DNA from: Cyanobacteriota bacterium
GTDB taxonomy: Bacteria > Cyanobacteriota > Cyanobacteriia > PCC-6307 > Cyanobiaceae
NCBI GenBank assembly: GCA_026389265.1
Contig: JAPLIE010000096.1
Location: 1-33,271, forward strand
DNA: 33,271 nucleotides
Direction of reading: 5' to 3'
Of this stretch, positions 2,382 through 26,243 are shown in pieces; within the stretch, counting starts at the first letter, position 1, and every line of letters starts with the position of its first letter. The notes below the pieces were generated by a model, which was not told the origin of the DNA, made no database searches, and was given only the letters and a program-made list of their open reading frames with translations. The position numbers were made by a program, and so were the translations under genes.

Positions 2382-3281
2382 TTAGCGACTAACGATGGTT
2401 TTAATCGAGGATTTAAGCTGGCTTAGAGCGTGAGAGATTTTTGCTTTAGGCCTCTTATAGAATGGAGTTCTCCAGAAGACATCCTCAATAATACTTTGGA
2501 GTGGTGTGATGGTCTCGCCAAATTCTCTATGGTGAAGAATAATGGTGTTGCGCTTTACGGGCTTCGCCTCGTAATGAATATCCTTAAGGTAATCCGAATA
2601 AGGTAGCATTCTTAATCTGTGCGCAACAATGCCAGCAGCAACTTGATCGCATCGATGTCCACATACACGTGGATCTTGTGAAACTCGAGAGTTGTTATTC
2701 CAAAAGATCTCCTGATATTCATCCCAAGTTTTGATCTTCTCCTTGATACCTCTTGCCGTTATCCCATCTGCCATGATTCGGTGCCATCCATCAAGAAAGC
2801 TGCTGGCCAATTCTGATCTAAAGTTTAGGCCAAGGACTGAACAAGGGATTTCTGGCATTGCAAGGGCTTCCTCCCGACTGACGTTATTCATTGCTAAGGC
2901 ATCATCGCTTGACCATTGTCCCATCATTTGTCCATAATTATTGTTGAAGAAAATATAACCATGCTGTTCAATAGAGCGAAAAACAGGTGCTAGATTCCGA
3001 ATTGCTACGCAAGGCGCATCAATCCAAAGCACTTGCTCATAGCCAAGTTCTTTTGCTTTGATAAAACAATAGGTTTTAAATCCGAACGGCGCTTCAAACT
3101 GATTGGGGCAACCGCTTGGCAGTGATTCATCCCAATAGAGATAATCGCCATCAAAACCGACACGTTTTAGGCTTTCTCCCAGTCGTTGCAGGGTAAGCTT
3201 GAAAACCGGCTTACCCACTCCAAGGCTAATCACGCACTTTTTGGTGCCATTATCTTTTCCCTCAATATGCACAAGCTTCAT
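2382..3281 (-). CDS. Putative GT-A-fold glycosyltransferase-like protein, unclassified
   Basis: A 299-residue protein without a confident family. The pattern resembles GT-A nucleotide-sugar transferases: a central FIKAKELGYEQVLWIDAP segment (WIDAP at 86-90) where a DxD-type metal site would sit at the end of a hydrophobic strand, a Phe/Asn-rich loop at about 110-116, and a CDQVAAGIVAHRLRM segment (211-225) like the acid/base region of several glycosyltransferases. No signal peptide or membrane helix is seen. ATG start. It lies 146 bases upstream of the GT8 gene and 60 bases downstream of the radical SAM gene on the same strand, in notably AT-rich DNA. Alternatives are a polysaccharide-modifying or purely structural protein. 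The transferase role is inferred. Confidence 0.5.
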   Translation of the reverse strand: MKLVHIEGKDNGTKKCVISLGVGKPVFKLTLQRLGESLKRVGFDGDYLYWDESLPSGCPNQFEAPFGFKTYCFIKAKELGYEQVLWIDAPCVAIRNLAPVFRSIEQHGYIFFNNNYGQMMGQWSSDDALAMNNVSREEALAMPEIPCSVLGLNFRSELASSFLDGWHRIMADGITARGIKEKIKTWDEYQEIFWNNNSRVSQDPRVCGHRCDQVAAGIVAHRLRMLPYSDYLKDIHYEAKPVKRNTIILHHREFGETITPLQSIIEDVFWRTPFYKRPKAKISHALSQLKSSIKTIVSR

Positions 3282-11214: not shown

Positions 11215-12249
11215 ATGGCATCCCCTCCGTACTCCCGCGAGGAACCTTCCTCCCCCCTGCCGGCTCCCTATGTGGATCCCTGGAGGCGTTTGGCCACCGA
11301 CCTGGCCGCCGTGGTCGCCACCGCCAGGCTGAAGGCCCAGGAACTCTGGCGGCTCAATGGCGAGGGCACTCTGGCCACACCGGTCTTCTGGCCCAGGGGT
11401 TTGGCCCCCCTGTTCTGGCCATTGCTGCTGACACTTGGCCTGCTCCTGGTGGTGGGATTGGCCCTGCGGCTGCCGGGAGGGTGGGAACGGCCCCCTGCGG
11501 ACCCTGCGGGGGAGCGGACTGCGGCTGTGGCTCCGCAAGCTCCCGGGCAGGGCACGGGCTCCTGGCCCCCGGGAATCCCCGGCGCCAGCCAGGCCCCGGA
11601 TTCCGTTCAGGCCGACCAACTCCAGGGCGATGTCGCTGCGCCGCCGCCTCCCCCGACCTCGGGGATCCCGGAGGACACGGGCTCAGTTGGGGGCCCATCG
11701 GCGGCTCGCAGACCTGTTGATTCGGGTGGCGGATCTCCTGGTCGGCCGAGCCGGTGGCCCTGGAGGCAGGGTCGTGGCGGCGATGGGGCCGAGGGGGCAT
11801 CAGGTGGGCCTGACACGCTGGATGGCGGTGGCGGCCCTGCGGCTGACCCGGTGGCTGGAGCCCCATCCAGGACCGTTGGGGGTCCGTCTTCGCCGCTGGG
11901 TTCCGGGGACGGACCGGGTGCCGGGAGCGCCGCCGACAGTGCAGCCGACAGTGCGGCGGTGCCAGCTGCTTCGCCCCTGGCTGAATTGGTGGGGGCCGAC
12001 CCTCCCGCTTGGGTTCTGGCTCTGGAGCAACGGCCCGCAGAAGGTCTGCTGCGGCTGCGGCTGGCCGGCGGCTATGGCGCGCTGCCCCTCACCGAGCGCC
12101 TCAGCATGGCGGAGCGGTGGCTGGATCGCGCTCGGGAGCTGGGCTATGAGCGCCTTGATCTGGTGGACCCGGCCGGGGGCCTGCTGGCCCGGCCCGCCCG
12201 GGTGGGCTCGGGCATGATCCTGCTCGACGCCGACTCCACCCCTCCATGA
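11215..12249 (+). CDS. Membrane-anchored hypothetical protein with a low-complexity middle
   Basis: A 344-residue open frame with no recognised function. The N-terminus (about 1-65) looks cytoplasmic, with an amphipathic stretch VDPWRRLATDLAAVVATARL. One membrane helix follows at about 63-83. Residues 90-260 are Pro/Gly/Ser/Ala-rich and disordered. The last 75 residues form a compact-looking segment (LLRLRLAGGYGALPLTERL, then MAERWLDRARELGYERLDLVD) that seems conserved-like. Within 11690-11990 the +1 frame is also open and reads as more ordinary Leu/Arg/Val-rich protein, so compensating frameshifts or overprinting are possible. The stop overlaps the first murF ATG as ATGA, so it is coupled to murF. 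Confidence 0.6.
   Translation: MASPPYSREEPSSPLPAPYVDPWRRLATDLAAVVATARLKAQELWRLNGEGTLATPVFWPRGLAPLFWPLLLTLGLLLVVGLALRLPGGWERPPADPAGERTAAVAPQAPGQGTGSWPPGIPGASQAPDSVQADQLQGDVAAPPPPPTSGIPEDTGSVGGPSAARRPVDSGGGSPGRPSRWPWRQGRGGDGAEGASGGPDTLDGGGGPAADPVAGAPSRTVGGPSSPLGSGDGPGAGSAADSAADSAAVPAASPLAELVGADPPAWVLALEQRPAEGLLRLRLAGGYGALPLTERLSMAERWLDRARELGYERLDLVDPAGGLLARPARVGSGMILLDADSTPP
11932..11954 (+). repeat. Short tandem repeat inside the hypothetical gene
   Basis: GCCGACAGTGC is repeated with a 12-nt period, encoding Ser-Ala-Ala-Asp units. It is a likely slippage site in the low-complexity region. Confidence 0.6.
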
Positions 12250-12395
12250 CCCTGCCCCTGGATCCCCTGCTGGCGCTCTGGGGCGAGCCCCTCGGTGAGC
12301 CAACCCGGCGTCCCGCCAGCCTGGCTGCCGTGAGCACCGACAGCCGCGCCGACCTGAACGGTGCCCTGTTCGTGCCGCTGGTGGGGGAAGGAACT
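12246..12395 (+). pseudogene. murF: N-terminal fragment of murF, out of frame with the rest
   Basis: The ATG at 12246 overlaps the preceding stop as ATGA. The frame encodes the start of a MurF N-terminal domain: residues 1-49, including VSTDSRADLNGALFVPLVGE, which is the UDP-MurNAc-tripeptide-binding region seen in MurF generally. After that the frame turns into non-protein-like sequence and stops at 12623. The expected next block (family pattern RFDxHxF and about 40 residues following) is absent, and the MurF sequence resumes in the +1 frame with ELGRLWRRQLG. By comparison with E. coli MurF as remembered, about 125 nt are missing. This is the natural 5' end of the murF gene at 12361-13563. 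Confidence 0.75.
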
Positions 12396-13563
12396 CGGAC
12401 GCCTCTGGCGCCGCCAACTGGGTGTACCGGTGGTGGCCGTGACGGGTTCGGCCGGCAAGACCACCACCCGCGAACTGATCCGCGCCGCCCTGGCCTACCT
12501 GGGGCCGGTGGTGGCCAGCAGCGGCAACGAGAACAACGATGTGGGGGCCCCGCTCACCCTGTTGAAGGCCGATGCCACCACTTGTGCTCTGGTGGTGGAG
12601 ATGGGGATGCGGGGCCTGGGTGAGATCGAGCGGCTGAGCCGTTGCGCCGAGCCCGACGTGGCCGTGATCACCAACATCGGCACCGCCCACATCGGCCGGC
12701 TCGGCAGCCGCGAGGCGATCGCCATCGCCAAGTGTGAGATCAGCGCGGCCCTGCGGTCCGATGGTCTGGTGGTGATCCCGGCTGGCGATCCCCTGCTGGA
12801 GGCGGCCCTGGCCGTCGGCTGGAGCGGCAGGGTGCGGCGGGTGGCACTGGCCGACGACGAGCTGGCGCCAGGAACGCCGCCGCCCGACCTGGTGGGCCGG
12901 CTGGCGGCGCCCTCCCCAGCCTCTGGCAGCGACAGCGAGCGCCCCGAAGCCGAGCGCCTGGACGCCGAGCACCTCGCTATTGAACGCCTTGAGGTGGAGG
13001 GCCTGCCGCCGATCACCCTCCCCCTGGCGGGCCGCCACAACGCCCGCAATTTGCTGCTTGCTCTGGCGGTAGCCCTGGAGCTGAGTGTGAAGCCCGCTGC
13101 CCTATGCGACCTGACGGTGGAGGTTCCGGGCGGCCGCAACCGGAGGCTGCAACTGGGTGGCGTGACCGTGCTGGATGAGACCTACAACGCCTCGCCGGAA
13201 GCGATGCTGGCGGCCCTCGACCTGCTGGCGGCCCAGCCCGTGCCGGCTGATGCGGCCCGCTATGCGGTGCTGGGCACGATGCTTGAGCTCGGGGAGAGCA
13301 GCCTGACGCTGCATCGCCAGGTGGCCGAGCGCGCCCGCAACCTGGGCCTGGATGGTCTGGTGATCGTGGATGGGGGCGCTGAAGGGGCGGCGATGCTGGA
13401 GGCGGCCGCTGGTCTGGAGGGGCTGGTGCGGGTGGCGCGGCCCGAGGAGGCGCTCGAGCCCCTGTTGGGCTGGCTACGGCCCGGCGATGCCCTGTTGCTC
13501 AAGGCGAGCCGCGGCGTGGCGCTGGAGCGGTTGCTTCCGCTGCTGCAGGAGCGGCTGGGCTGA
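12361..13563 (+). CDS. murF: UDP-N-acetylmuramoyl-tripeptide--D-alanyl-D-alanine ligase, N-terminally truncated
   Basis: Central and C-terminal domains of MurF, the last cytoplasmic Mur ligase, which adds D-Ala-D-Ala to the peptidoglycan precursor. The ATP-binding P-loop GSAGKTTT is at 29-36 of this 400-residue frame. It is followed by SGNENNDVGAPLTLL, VVEMGMRGLGEI, ITNIGTAHIG, AGRHNARNLLLALAVA and LDETYNASPEAM, all Mur-ligase signatures. The catalytic core is therefore intact. The N-terminal substrate domain is broken: its first 49 residues lie in another frame from 12246, and about 40 residues are missing. The GTG at 12361 is simply the first available start in this frame. MurF is normally essential, so either the sequence is wrong here, a second copy exists, or the damaged gene still works. 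Confidence 0.85.
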   Translation: MPCSCRWWGKELGRLWRRQLGVPVVAVTGSAGKTTTRELIRAALAYLGPVVASSGNENNDVGAPLTLLKADATTCALVVEMGMRGLGEIERLSRCAEPDVAVITNIGTAHIGRLGSREAIAIAKCEISAALRSDGLVVIPAGDPLLEAALAVGWSGRVRRVALADDELAPGTPPPDLVGRLAAPSPASGSDSERPEAERLDAEHLAIERLEVEGLPPITLPLAGRHNARNLLLALAVALELSVKPAALCDLTVEVPGGRNRRLQLGGVTVLDETYNASPEAMLAALDLLAAQPVPADAARYAVLGTMLELGESSLTLHRQVAERARNLGLDGLVIVDGGAEGAAMLEAAAGLEGLVRVARPEEALEPLLGWLRPGDALLLKASRGVALERLLPLLQERLG

Positions 13564-13705
13564 TCGGCGGGCGCCCCGTTTTGGAGCGGTGTCTTTCGCT
13601 TGGCATGTCGGTCCGTGTGGTGGGGCAACCAGCCAGGGAGTCCCGTGACCTCTTCGGAGTCCGACTTCATCGTCCCGTCAGTGGCATGTCCGTCTGCCTG
13701 GCTGG

Positions 13706-13852
13706 GCCGAGTTGATGCACGGCGCCGAGAAGAGTTCAGATCCGGAACGCTCGCTGGCCGTGGTGGAGGACTTCTAGGGCCTCACCCTGGTGAGCAACAA
13801 CCTGCGCGAGTTCGAGCGGGTGGACGGACTGCTGTACGAAAACTGGGTCTGA
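13706..13852 (+). pseudogene. vapC: vapC (PIN-domain toxin) remnant with internal deletion
   Basis: The 392-base stretch between murF and the next gene (13564-13955) holds this remnant and nothing else recognised. One frame encodes AELMHGAEKSSDPERSLAVV then EDF, a TAG stop at 13775-13777, and GLTLVSNNLREFERVDGLLY then ENWV with TGA at 13850. Both blocks match VapC-type PIN-domain ribonucleases: the first carries the ELxxGAEKS acidic segment, the second the C-terminal LVxNNxREFxRV segment. The N-terminal Asp strand and roughly 45 central residues are missing, so the toxin cannot be active. No vapB was found beside it. Confidence 0.75.
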
Positions 13853-13955
13853 CTACTCGCTCGCAGGGGTACCAGGTCTGCTTTGAGCGTTCAAAGGTGA
13901 ACTCCAGCAGATCTCCGGCGTCTTGGGCTGCTAGCGCCGCTACCGAGTCAGGGGG

Positions 13956-14225
13956 TCATTCGTAGTGCGTCCACAGCCTCAGCACCTTCACGATCCTTTC
14001 CTCGTGGAGAACCTGGTAGACGAGCCGGTGCTGGATGTTGAGCCGACGGGAGAAGGCTCTGCGCAGATCACCCACCAGCGCCTCATAGGGCGGAGGTAGG
14101 CGGAAGGGATCCTCTGCCAGGAGTTGCAGCAGCTTCTCAGCCTTGGCCTTGAGGGCCGGTGAGGCGGCAGCGAGCTTGCGGGCGTCCTTCTGCGCCTGCT
14201 TGGTGAAACGAACGCTCCAGCTCAC
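13956..14225 (-). CDS. yoeB: YoeB/Txe-type toxin (mRNA interferase)
   Basis: 89-residue protein of the RelE/YoeB superfamily: MSWSVRFTKQAQKDARKL at the N-terminus, PPPYEALVGDLRRAFSRRLN in the middle, and the characteristic end HRLVYQV with LRLWTHYE. YoeB toxins cleave mRNA at the ribosome; the conserved basic residues and the terminal His-Tyr are present, so it should be functional. GTG start overlapping the antitoxin stop by 4 bases, the usual arrangement for this family (antitoxin first). It sits in a decayed accessory stretch beside a broken vapC. Confidence 0.9.
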   Translation of the reverse strand: MSWSVRFTKQAQKDARKLAAASPALKAKAEKLLQLLAEDPFRLPPPYEALVGDLRRAFSRRLNIQHRLVYQVLHEERIVKVLRLWTHYE

Positions 14226-14464
14226 CAGCCGGGCTGCTCACTGAGCTCATCTGACGGTGTGGCCAGCCCTTCGAGGATCGACTCGCGCATCCCCGGGATC
14301 GAGACCAGGTGCAGGGTCTCCTGGATGGCGTTCCAGTCGGCCTCGGAGAGCAGCACGGCATTGCCGCGCTTGCCGGTGATCTGCACCGGCTCGTGCGAGT
14401 CGCCGACCTCATCGATCAGGGCATACAGGCGCTTTCGGGCTTCTGTCGCAGAAATGCTTGCCAC
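14222..14464 (-). CDS. yefM: YefM/Phd-type antitoxin
   Basis: 80-residue antitoxin partner of the YoeB-type toxin. MASISATEARKRLYALIDEV is the DNA-binding Phd/YefM N-terminus; EPVQITGKRGNAVLLSEADW is the family core. The C-terminal tail (MRESILEGLATPSDELSEQPGW) would wrap the toxin. GTG start at 14464. Antitoxins of this family repress their own operon with the toxin as co-repressor; an inverted repeat lies just upstream. Confidence 0.9.
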   Translation of the reverse strand: MASISATEARKRLYALIDEVGDSHEPVQITGKRGNAVLLSEADWNAIQETLHLVSIPGMRESILEGLATPSDELSEQPGW

Positions 14465-14484
14465 CAGAGCAGAGCGTCAGGCAC

Positions 14485-14500
14485 GTACGTCAAAGCGTAC
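14485..14500 (-). promoter_or_regulatory. Candidate operator upstream of the toxin-antitoxin operon
   Basis: An inverted repeat GTACG (14485-14489) and CGTAC (14496-14500) with a 6-nt spacer, overlapping a palindrome ACGTACGT, lies about 20-35 nt before the antitoxin GTG. On the minus strand a TTGACG hexamer overlaps it. It is suitable for autorepression by the antitoxin, but this is not shown. Confidence 0.3.
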
Positions 14501-14559
14501 CGCTGCCTGCCATGGCAATGGGTTGGATCCCAGACCCCCTTGCCGCCATGGCCACGCCG

Positions 14560-14700
14560 ATGACCCCGGAGCGGTTCCAGGACCGCTGGGAAGCCTTCAA
14601 GGGCGAACCCCAGCAAGTGTCCGGCATCTGGGGGCTCTACAGCTCGATCGCCGAAATGGAAGGCAGTGGCGACATCCTCGATGAGCACGCCAGCTGGACC
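14560..14700 (+). pseudogene. Gene fragment A, unrecognised
   Basis: The frame from the ATG at 14560 reads MTPERFQDRWEAFKGEPQQV, then SGIWGLYSSIAEMEGSGDIL and DEHASW. This is natural-looking protein with normal local codon use. After about 14700 the frame becomes Trp/Cys-rich nonsense and stops at 14769. It looks like the N-terminal 45 or so residues of a broken gene. The pattern loosely recalls N-termini of phage or cell-wall-related proteins, but I do not assign it. Confidence 0.4.
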
Positions 14701-14855
14701 TGCGGGTGGTGGAGCGTTATGGCGACACCACCAGCCAGGAGGCTCACGCCAAGGTCCTCGCCGAGTTGAACGCACCCGGTCGGTTCCTCACCAACTGCCC
14801 GGTGGAGCGGGCCAAGGCCGAGCGGCGCTCCCTTGGCTGGGATCGTCGGCCAGCT
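14685..14855 (+). pseudogene. Gene fragment B, unrecognised
   Basis: In the frame opening after a TGA at 14682-14684, the sequence reads RQLDLRVVERYGDTTSQEAH, then AKVLAELNAPGRFLTN and CPVERAKAERRS. It is natural-looking protein until about 14855. It may be the continuation of fragment A after a frameshift or deletion at about 14690, or a different gene. No start codon is convincing. Function unknown. Confidence 0.4.
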
Positions 14856-14861
14856 GCAGCA

Positions 14862-14954
14862 AGCCATCCGCCGCTCCGCATCGTCCTCTGCCCCACGGGC
14901 CTGCTTGATGGCCTCTCTGAGCAGCAGCACATTGTAGGTGGTGATGGGTTCCAC
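14862..14954 (-). pseudogene. Gene fragment C, start of an unrecognised gene
   Basis: From a GTG at 14954 on the minus strand the frame encodes MEPITTYNVLLLREAIKQAR followed by GAEDDAERRM, with codon use like real genes. Beyond about 14860 it runs antisense to fragment B and loses protein character. It is probably the first 30 residues of a truncated gene. Confidence 0.35.
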
Positions 14955-15100
14955 GGCGTGGCTAGCGCTGGTTCAAAGCCATCGTGCCCGAGCTGGTCCG
15001 ATCCGGCTTCTCCTGACCCATCAGACGAGGGGCAAGGGCTTGACAGTCCATAGGAGTGCAGGCGAACCGGCGTGGGGCGGGAAGGCCATCGGCACGATTC
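14955..15100. other. Non-coding remainder with a short coding-like tail
   Basis: On the plus strand, 14976-15016 reads as FKAIVPELVRSGFS followed by TGA, possibly the last residues of another lost gene. Nothing else is recognised before the hydrolase stop at 15101. Confidence 0.25.
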
Positions 15101-24552: not shown

Positions 24553-25308
24553 ATGAACATCTCTTACTTCCACACCTCCGAAGCGGTGCCCGCGGTGTTG
24601 CCCACCGCCGAGGGCGGACCGGATGCGGCCGTGGTGATCGATGTGTTGCGGGCCACCACCACGATCGCCTGGTCGCTCGAGAACGGTGCCGAGGCGATCC
24701 AGGCTTTCGCCGACCTCGCTGAGCTGGAGGCCGCCGCCGCCGCCTGGCCAGCCGAGCAGCGGCTGCGGGCCGGCGAGCGCGGCGGCCAGCGGGTGGAGGG
24801 CTACGAACTGGGCAATTCCCCTCTGGCGGTGACGCCGGAGCTGGTGGGGGGCAAACGGATCTTCATGAGCACCACCAACGGCACCCGCTCCCTGGCGGCC
24901 GTGCGGGAGGTGCCGCTGCTGCTCACCGCCTGTCTGCCCAACCGCACCGCCGTGGCGCGCCGCCTGATCGAACGGGATGCCCAGCAGGTGTGGATCGTGG
25001 GCAGTGGCTGGGAGGGCGATTACTCCTTGGAGGACACCCTGGCGGCAGGGGCCGTGGCCTCGGCGGCGATCGAGCTGGCGGTGGCCCCCCACCGGGGGGT
25101 CACCTGCGCCAACGACGAGATGCTCGCCGCCCTGGCTCTCTGGCAGCAGTGGCGCCACGACACCGAAACCTGCCTGCGGGCCGCCAGCCATGGCCAGCGC
25201 CTGATTCGCCTCGGCAACCACGACGCCGACTTTGCCTGCTGTGCTGCCGTGGACAGCCTGCAGGTCGTGCCGATTCAGGCGGAAGCGGGGGTGCTGCGCG
25301 CCAGCTGA
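24553..25308 (+). CDS. comB: 2-phosphosulfolactate phosphatase family protein (ComB)
   Basis: 251 residues matching ComB, the Mg-dependent phosphatase that makes sulfolactate. Segments: [20 protein letters not shown] with the catalytic-site Asp, [34 protein letters not shown], and [20 protein letters not shown]. In methanogens it belongs to coenzyme M synthesis; cyanobacteria are not known to make coenzyme M, and no ComA or ComC is seen here, so the role may be sulfolactate production or another phosphoester. ATG at 24553. Confidence 0.9.
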
Positions 25309-25396
25309 GCTCACCGCGCCCGGCTCTCCGAGTGGGTGTCGCCCGGCAGCTCCGGCTCCCCATGCCCCAACCCTGGCTCGCTCGGGTACGGCCCCT

Positions 25397-25402
25397 TACA
25401 GT
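25397..25402 (+). promoter_or_regulatory. Candidate -10 element of the nitrilase-family gene
   Basis: TACAGT ends 22 nt before the GTG start at 25425, and a GGAG ribosome site lies between (25416-25419). Confidence 0.4.
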
Positions 25403-25424
25403 TCGCCCGAAGATTGGAGTAACG

Positions 25425-26243
25425 GTGGGTAGTTTCCTGGCAGCGGCCCTGCAACTCACCAGCGGCTCCGATCCGGATGCCAACTTCGCCGCAGCCGAGG
25501 AGCAGATCGAGCTGGCGTCCCGCCGCGGCGCCGATTTGGTGGGGCTGCCCGAGAACTTCGCCTTCATGGGTGACGACCAGCGTCGCCTGGAGCTGGCGCC
25601 GGCCCTGGCGGAGCGTTGCAGCCGCTTTCTGGTCACGATGGCGCGCCGCTATCAGCTGACCCTCCTCGGCGGTGGCTTTCCGGTTCCGGCCGGGGAGAAC
25701 CTCACCTACAACCGCTCCGAGCTGGTGGGCACCGAGGGCCAGCTGCTGGCTCGCTACGACAAGATCCATCTTTTTGATGTCGATATCCCCGATGGCATCA
25801 CCTACTGCGAATCCGCCACGGTGAAGCCCGGCGATGCGCTTCCCCCTGTGGTGGATGTGCCCGGTCTGTGCCGTATCGGCCTTTCGATCTGTTACGACGT
25901 GCGCTTCCCGGAGCTCTACCGCTACCTGGCCTCAGCGGGGGCTGAACTGCTGATGGTGCCGGCCGCCTTCACCGCCTACACCGGCAAGGACCACTGGCAG
26001 GTGCTCCTGCAGGCCCGGGCGATCGAAAACACCGCCTACGTGGTGGCGCCGGCCCAGACCGGTGTTCATTACGGCCGCCGCCAGACCCATGGCCATGCCC
26101 TGGTGATCGATCCCTGGGGCACCGTGCTGGCCGACGCCGGCCAGGCCCCCGGCCTCGCCGTTGCCCCGGTCGATGGAGGCCACGGCGCGCGAGTCCGGGC
26201 CCAGATGCCGAGCCTGCAGCACCGGCAACCGGCATTGTTCTGA
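25425..26243 (+). CDS. Carbon-nitrogen hydrolase, Nit2/omega-amidase-like
   Basis: 272 residues from GTG at 25425, chosen because GGAG precedes it and the nitrilase fold begins immediately (FLAAALQLTSGSDPDANF). The catalytic triad is complete: Glu43 (GLPENFAFMG), Lys113 (RYDKIHLFDVDIP) and Cys156 (SICYDVRFPELYR). The context around Cys and the overall length point to the Nit1/Nit2 branch that clears deaminated glutathione or 2-oxoglutaramate/2-oxosuccinamate, not true nitrilases. An ATG at 25362 is a longer alternative. The amidase gene follows after 7 bases, so both are probably one operon. Confidence 0.9.
   Translation: MGSFLAAALQLTSGSDPDANFAAAEEQIELASRRGADLVGLPENFAFMGDDQRRLELAPALAERCSRFLVTMARRYQLTLLGGGFPVPAGENLTYNRSELVGTEGQLLARYDKIHLFDVDIPDGITYCESATVKPGDALPPVVDVPGLCRIGLSICYDVRFPELYRYLASAGAELLMVPAAFTAYTGKDHWQVLLQARAIENTAYVVAPAQTGVHYGRRQTHGHALVIDPWGTVLADAGQAPGLAVAPVDGGHGARVRAQMPSLQHRQPALF

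Follow-up and report, generated by a model that had tools for sequence, protein, structure and literature searches.

Among described systems, the closest counterpart of the gene considered here is murF, which encodes the UDP-N-acetylmuramoyl-tripeptide--D-alanyl-D-alanine ligase (NCBIfam TIGR01143) and is, like rpoC1, indispensable. A further MurF-like ligase is known in the form of the MurF-alanine racemase fusion (of the NCBIfam NF008897 type), and 20 of the 42 genomes of the genus compared here apparently have a second, long MurF-like gene that may be of this kind. At the level of the assembled sequence, many putative bacterial pseudogenes have been attributed to assembly errors (Cooley and Wright 2024, PMC11017572). 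The genes concerned in that study resemble the locus described below in appearing broken in a draft genome in a form that is not shared by relatives; however, they are typified by frameshifts and internal stops, whereas the present gene shows a blunt loss of 155 bp.

The locus lies in the window, i.e. the whole stretch of DNA that was analysed, which is 33,271 bp long, contains no Ns and represents the entire contig C27 of a draft assembly that totals 3.49 Mb over 214 contigs (by estimate 95.4% complete and 3.0% contaminated). The 42 genomes used for the genus comparison comprise the window's own and 41 others. The closest relative found among them is Cyanobium LBMAG bin3 (BJHE01000005.1; G023 below), a metagenome bin that is approximately 92% identical to the window's own assembly, and gaps are therefore seen in both directions between the two. 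Its murF locus (L040) was the only one of the 80 relative loci collected that entered the detailed comparison, from which the following features were defined:

11215-12249: upstream gene, the stop of which is overlapped by the murF ATG at 12246
12246..12388, plus strand: 5' piece of murF, residues 1-48 in the numbering of the relative, read in the frame of the 12246 ATG
12388..12389, plus strand: junction at which 155 bp of the relative (L040:2847-3001) are absent by alignment
12389..13563, plus strand: 3' piece of murF, which begins at residue 100 in the numbering of the relative and runs to the stop, with the Mur ligase middle and C-terminal domains in an uninterrupted frame
12246..12623, plus strand: mechanical ORF of 125 aa from the murF ATG, which leaves the MurF frame past the junction
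12361..13563, plus strand: mechanical ORF of 400 aa from a GTG, which spans the 3' piece and has no counterpart of the N-terminal domain match seen in the intact relative

In the relative murF is a single uninterrupted ORF of 495 aa. Alignment of the window to this ORF shows that exactly 155 bp, or 51 codons and 2 nt, are gone between 12388 and 12389, with residues 49-99 of the 495-aa protein being lost whole. Given that 155 leaves a remainder of 2 when divided by 3, the murF frame shifts at the junction, and the MurF reading restarts one frame over at ELGRLWRRQLG to end at 13563. Both pieces are more than 90% identical at the DNA level to the single ORF of the relative, indicating that the resemblance is not by chance, and the presence of the frame break in the assembled sequence is confirmed. 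The junction is blunt, with no bases common to both ends in our own reading of the alignment. Other than the 155-bp gap and a 15-bp in-frame gap at 12934, the murF locus is collinear with that of the relative. The preliminary description had proposed both the coupling of the murF start to the upstream gene and a break at which the first frame departs from MurF before its resumption at ELGRLWRRQLG, and it is borne out on these points, including the position of the break; its estimate of the gap as about 125 nt or 42 residues, based on E. coli MurF, proves somewhat low.

Analysis of the domain matches showed that the 3' piece covers positions 63-201 and 242-418 of the TIGR01143 model and retains the middle ATP-binding domain (PF08245, 3.6e-36) and the C-terminal ligase domain (PF02875, 3.9e-13). 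The 400-aa ORF scores 272.4 bits against TIGR01143, below the curated cut-off of 288.6, which is itself exceeded in only 9 of the 13 control genomes with a match. The N-terminal Mur_ligase domain (PF01225) spans residues 28-102 in the intact relative and yields no match in either of the two window pieces at E <= 1, and in solved MurF chains the counterpart of the lost residues falls, by alignment, in the N-terminal part. Thus, the window gene shares with known murF genes the model match of its 3' piece and an upstream part collinear with the relative, but differs from them in an N-terminal domain broken by the gap and the frame shift and in a score under the family cut-off.

In the 5' piece of murF, the 47 codons compared differ from those of the relative by 3 synonymous and 0 nonsynonymous changes, and the 3' frame contains no further stops. 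Past the junction the dN/dS relative to the same genome is 0.32, a value that equals the highest among the Pfam-matched genes of the window (0.04-0.32); the upstream gene, which is without a Pfam match, has a value of 0.57 (the survey listed ORFs below 0.7, with antisense ORFs included). When ten outgroups were used alongside the relative to polarise the murF replacements, 12 proved to be window-derived and 9 relative-derived, and 13 were unplaced on either branch. Hence, there appears to be no clear sign of an excess of protein change on the window's branch, which suggests that the defect is either recent or not real; likewise, a decay of the kind expected of a pseudogene is not clearly seen in these counts. 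As for the other genes of the window, 21 of 22 ORFs match G023 in one frame over nearly their full length and without stops, while the remaining one (24990-26243) has an over-long start and matches in one frame in its main part, from residue 127 onward.

The gap is not a shared feature of the genus. In 39 of the 42 genomes a single match to murF runs across the gap region, the three exceptions being the window's own genome, G016 (64% complete), in which murF is apparently split over two contigs with the larger piece covering the gap region, and G005 (84% complete), in which no murF orthologue was found. Counting the apparently split gene of G016, the gap region is carried by 40 of the 41 other genomes, and a check at the level of residues recovered 50 or 51 of residues 49-99 in all 29 other genomes entered into it, as against 0 in the window's genome. 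Relatives with the same gap, a prospect raised in the preliminary description, were therefore absent from the genus genomes examined. A second murF elsewhere, which it had also envisaged, was searched for in the 95%-complete own assembly with the same outcome: family and protein searches, which scored all candidates of their initial pass, recovered only the two pieces described here and other Mur ligases. Among the latter, the candidate on C32 is MurE by reading of its translation, and those on C46 and C104 are presumably MurC and MurD. A DNA search of the own assembly for the missing segment, in which 40 of 165 candidates were scored, likewise returned no copy, the best matches being 26 bases at 96% and 62 bases at 76%.

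The apparent second, long MurF-like genes of the genus have frames of 667-904 aa and about 40% identity, and in G005 a long gene of this kind was the only MurF-like gene found. The one such gene that was scanned, from G019 (L127, G019:C1:3132800-3136500), is a MurF-alanine racemase fusion by its domains. Neither the genome of the window nor G023 yielded such a fusion; in each of them a racemase is matched on a different contig and separately from the Mur ligases. Accordingly, no murF backup of this type is seen in the window's genome.

A comparison of the own genome with G023 provides a wider context for the gap. It extended over approximately 126 kb of aligned sequence, with HSPs below 85% identity or about 500 bp being dropped and a few of the kept HSPs overlapping slightly, and it uncovered one similar defect in another indispensable gene, namely rpoC1, which encodes the RNA polymerase gamma subunit (TIGR02387) and is without 78 bp, or 26 residues, again with blunt ends:

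L170:6868-6869, own contig C111 around 21,868: rpoC1 deletion, by alignment to G023

On either side of this loss the protein is almost identical to that of the relative. The affected stretch is whole in 37 of the 42 genus genomes, at 93-100% identity; among the other genomes three are without a match and one has a match that ends at a contig end, and two abutting rpoC1 halves occur in the window's genome alone of the 42. Among the matches listed, the 26-residue block is free of gaps in 5 of 5 alignments (three cyanobacterial and two other bacterial RNA polymerases), and the own rpoC1 additionally has His in place of Pro within a conserved motif, at a position occupied by Pro in all of those five. 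Across 42 ORF pairs with at least 95% identity, which include antisense shadows, gaps of at least 8 residues are found twice in the own genome, in rpoC1 and htrA, and never in the relative. In the case of htrA (L170:17235-17241), 66 bp encoding 22 N-terminal residues are missing with respect to the relative, in frame and before the conserved domains. Other gaps of at least 20 bp relative to G023 include one of 222 bp (L168), one of 38 bp (L171) and several that are repeat-like or intergenic-looking; indeed, many of the gaps between the two genomes fall within repeats, intergenic sequence or variable parts of proteins. Indels in the opposite direction also occur, e.g. in-frame ones of 60 and 45 bp in glycosyltransferase-like genes. 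The presence of indels in both directions implies that not every gap is an error, and the argument developed here rests on rpoC1 and murF.

Two blunt deletions that are private to this genome and affect indispensable genes, within about 126 kb of sequence that is otherwise well kept, are best read as assembly drop-outs. We place at roughly 0.77 the probability that the 155-bp gap is an assembly error and that the living cell has an ordinary intact murF. Under this proposal the deletions would have arisen in sequencing or assembly and not in the cell: a short segment of murF would have been dropped and its two flanks then joined without Ns. The route might, at a guess, involve poorly covered G+C-rich segments or the closing of gaps; the missing murF segment has 72% G+C, compared to 66% for the whole window, which could conceivably lower its coverage. 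The preliminary description had left a sequence error, a second copy and a shortened ligase as its three options. With the murF gap confined to this genome within the genus set and a like deletion in rpoC1, the error is the best supported of these, while the second copy was not found and the shortened ligase is very unlikely. Certain observations nevertheless weigh against an assembly error. The absence of Ns and of frame breaks in the gene parts of the 22 other ORFs of the window suggests a good base quality, and neither the rpoC1 nor the htrA deletion disturbs the reading frame, as is the tendency of real deletions. Further, overlap-based misassembly does not usually give blunt joins that lack homology, which makes the murF junction itself a point against this explanation, and the position of the murF dN/dS at the top of the local range could fit a weakened constraint. 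As a caution, given that short segments of two indispensable genes appear to have been dropped from this assembly, broken or missing genes in it need the support of reads before they are given a biological reading.

Several of these same observations lend themselves to the main rival of an assembly error, namely a real and very recent deletion that left murF dead in the lineage or in part of the population, with cells surviving on intact copies, which might be supplied by the several chromosome copies of a cell or by a copy in the unassembled portion of approximately 5%. The clean junction without Ns, the intact frames of the 22 other compared ORFs and the dN/dS of murF are all consistent with such an event, as are a genome that is only 95.4% complete in 214 contigs and the apparent presence of a second long MurF-like gene in 20 of the 42 genus genomes. 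Nonetheless, neither a second copy nor the racemase fusion was found in the own assembly or in the closest relative, and a real deletion would have to coincide with that in rpoC1; hence, we regard it as unlikely. Still less probable is a mosaic of populations, whereby the contig would be a consensus drawn from several strains, among them one with a defective murF, and the junction would occur in some molecules but not in the main strain. A draft in 214 contigs with 3% estimated contamination would be compatible with such a mixture; however, the sequences on the two sides of the junction resemble one and the same relative to a similar degree (93% and 92% DNA identity).

Two further explanations are very unlikely. 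A working shortened MurF could in principle be produced either through +1 frameshifting at the junction or by internal initiation of translation, in line with the open 3' frame and with protein change that is not in clear excess over that of the relative. Such an enzyme would be mostly devoid of the N-terminal Mur_ligase match and of residues corresponding to the N-terminal part of the solved chains; it fits poorly with the frame break, and its form was seen in no other genome examined. It is equally far-fetched that both the murF and rpoC1 deletions are real and that the organism lives with a MurF whose N-terminal domain is mostly missing, made through frameshifting or internal initiation, together with a gamma subunit without its conserved 26-residue block; were these deletions real, what two near-universal enzymes minimally require would have to be reconsidered. 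Finally, a programmed frameshift can be set aside, the relative being in frame through the region and the form of the window not being shared, and so can a repeat-mediated deletion, as none of the repeats found in the intact sequence of the relative ends at the junction; these comprise a single direct repeat of 13 nt, which is imperfect (L040:2830-2842 and 3037-3049), along with two inverted repeats, both of them weak.

Two larger differences between the genomes were also observed. The own genome contains hardly any sequence that corresponds to the region at 60-78 kb of contig 5 of G023. Conversely, a stretch of about 1.5 kb downstream of murF (13568-15060) is absent from the closest relative, which has about 80 bp in its place, and within it lie the following genes:

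13956-14225, minus strand: YoeB/ParE-like toxin
14222-14464, minus strand: Phd/YefM antitoxin
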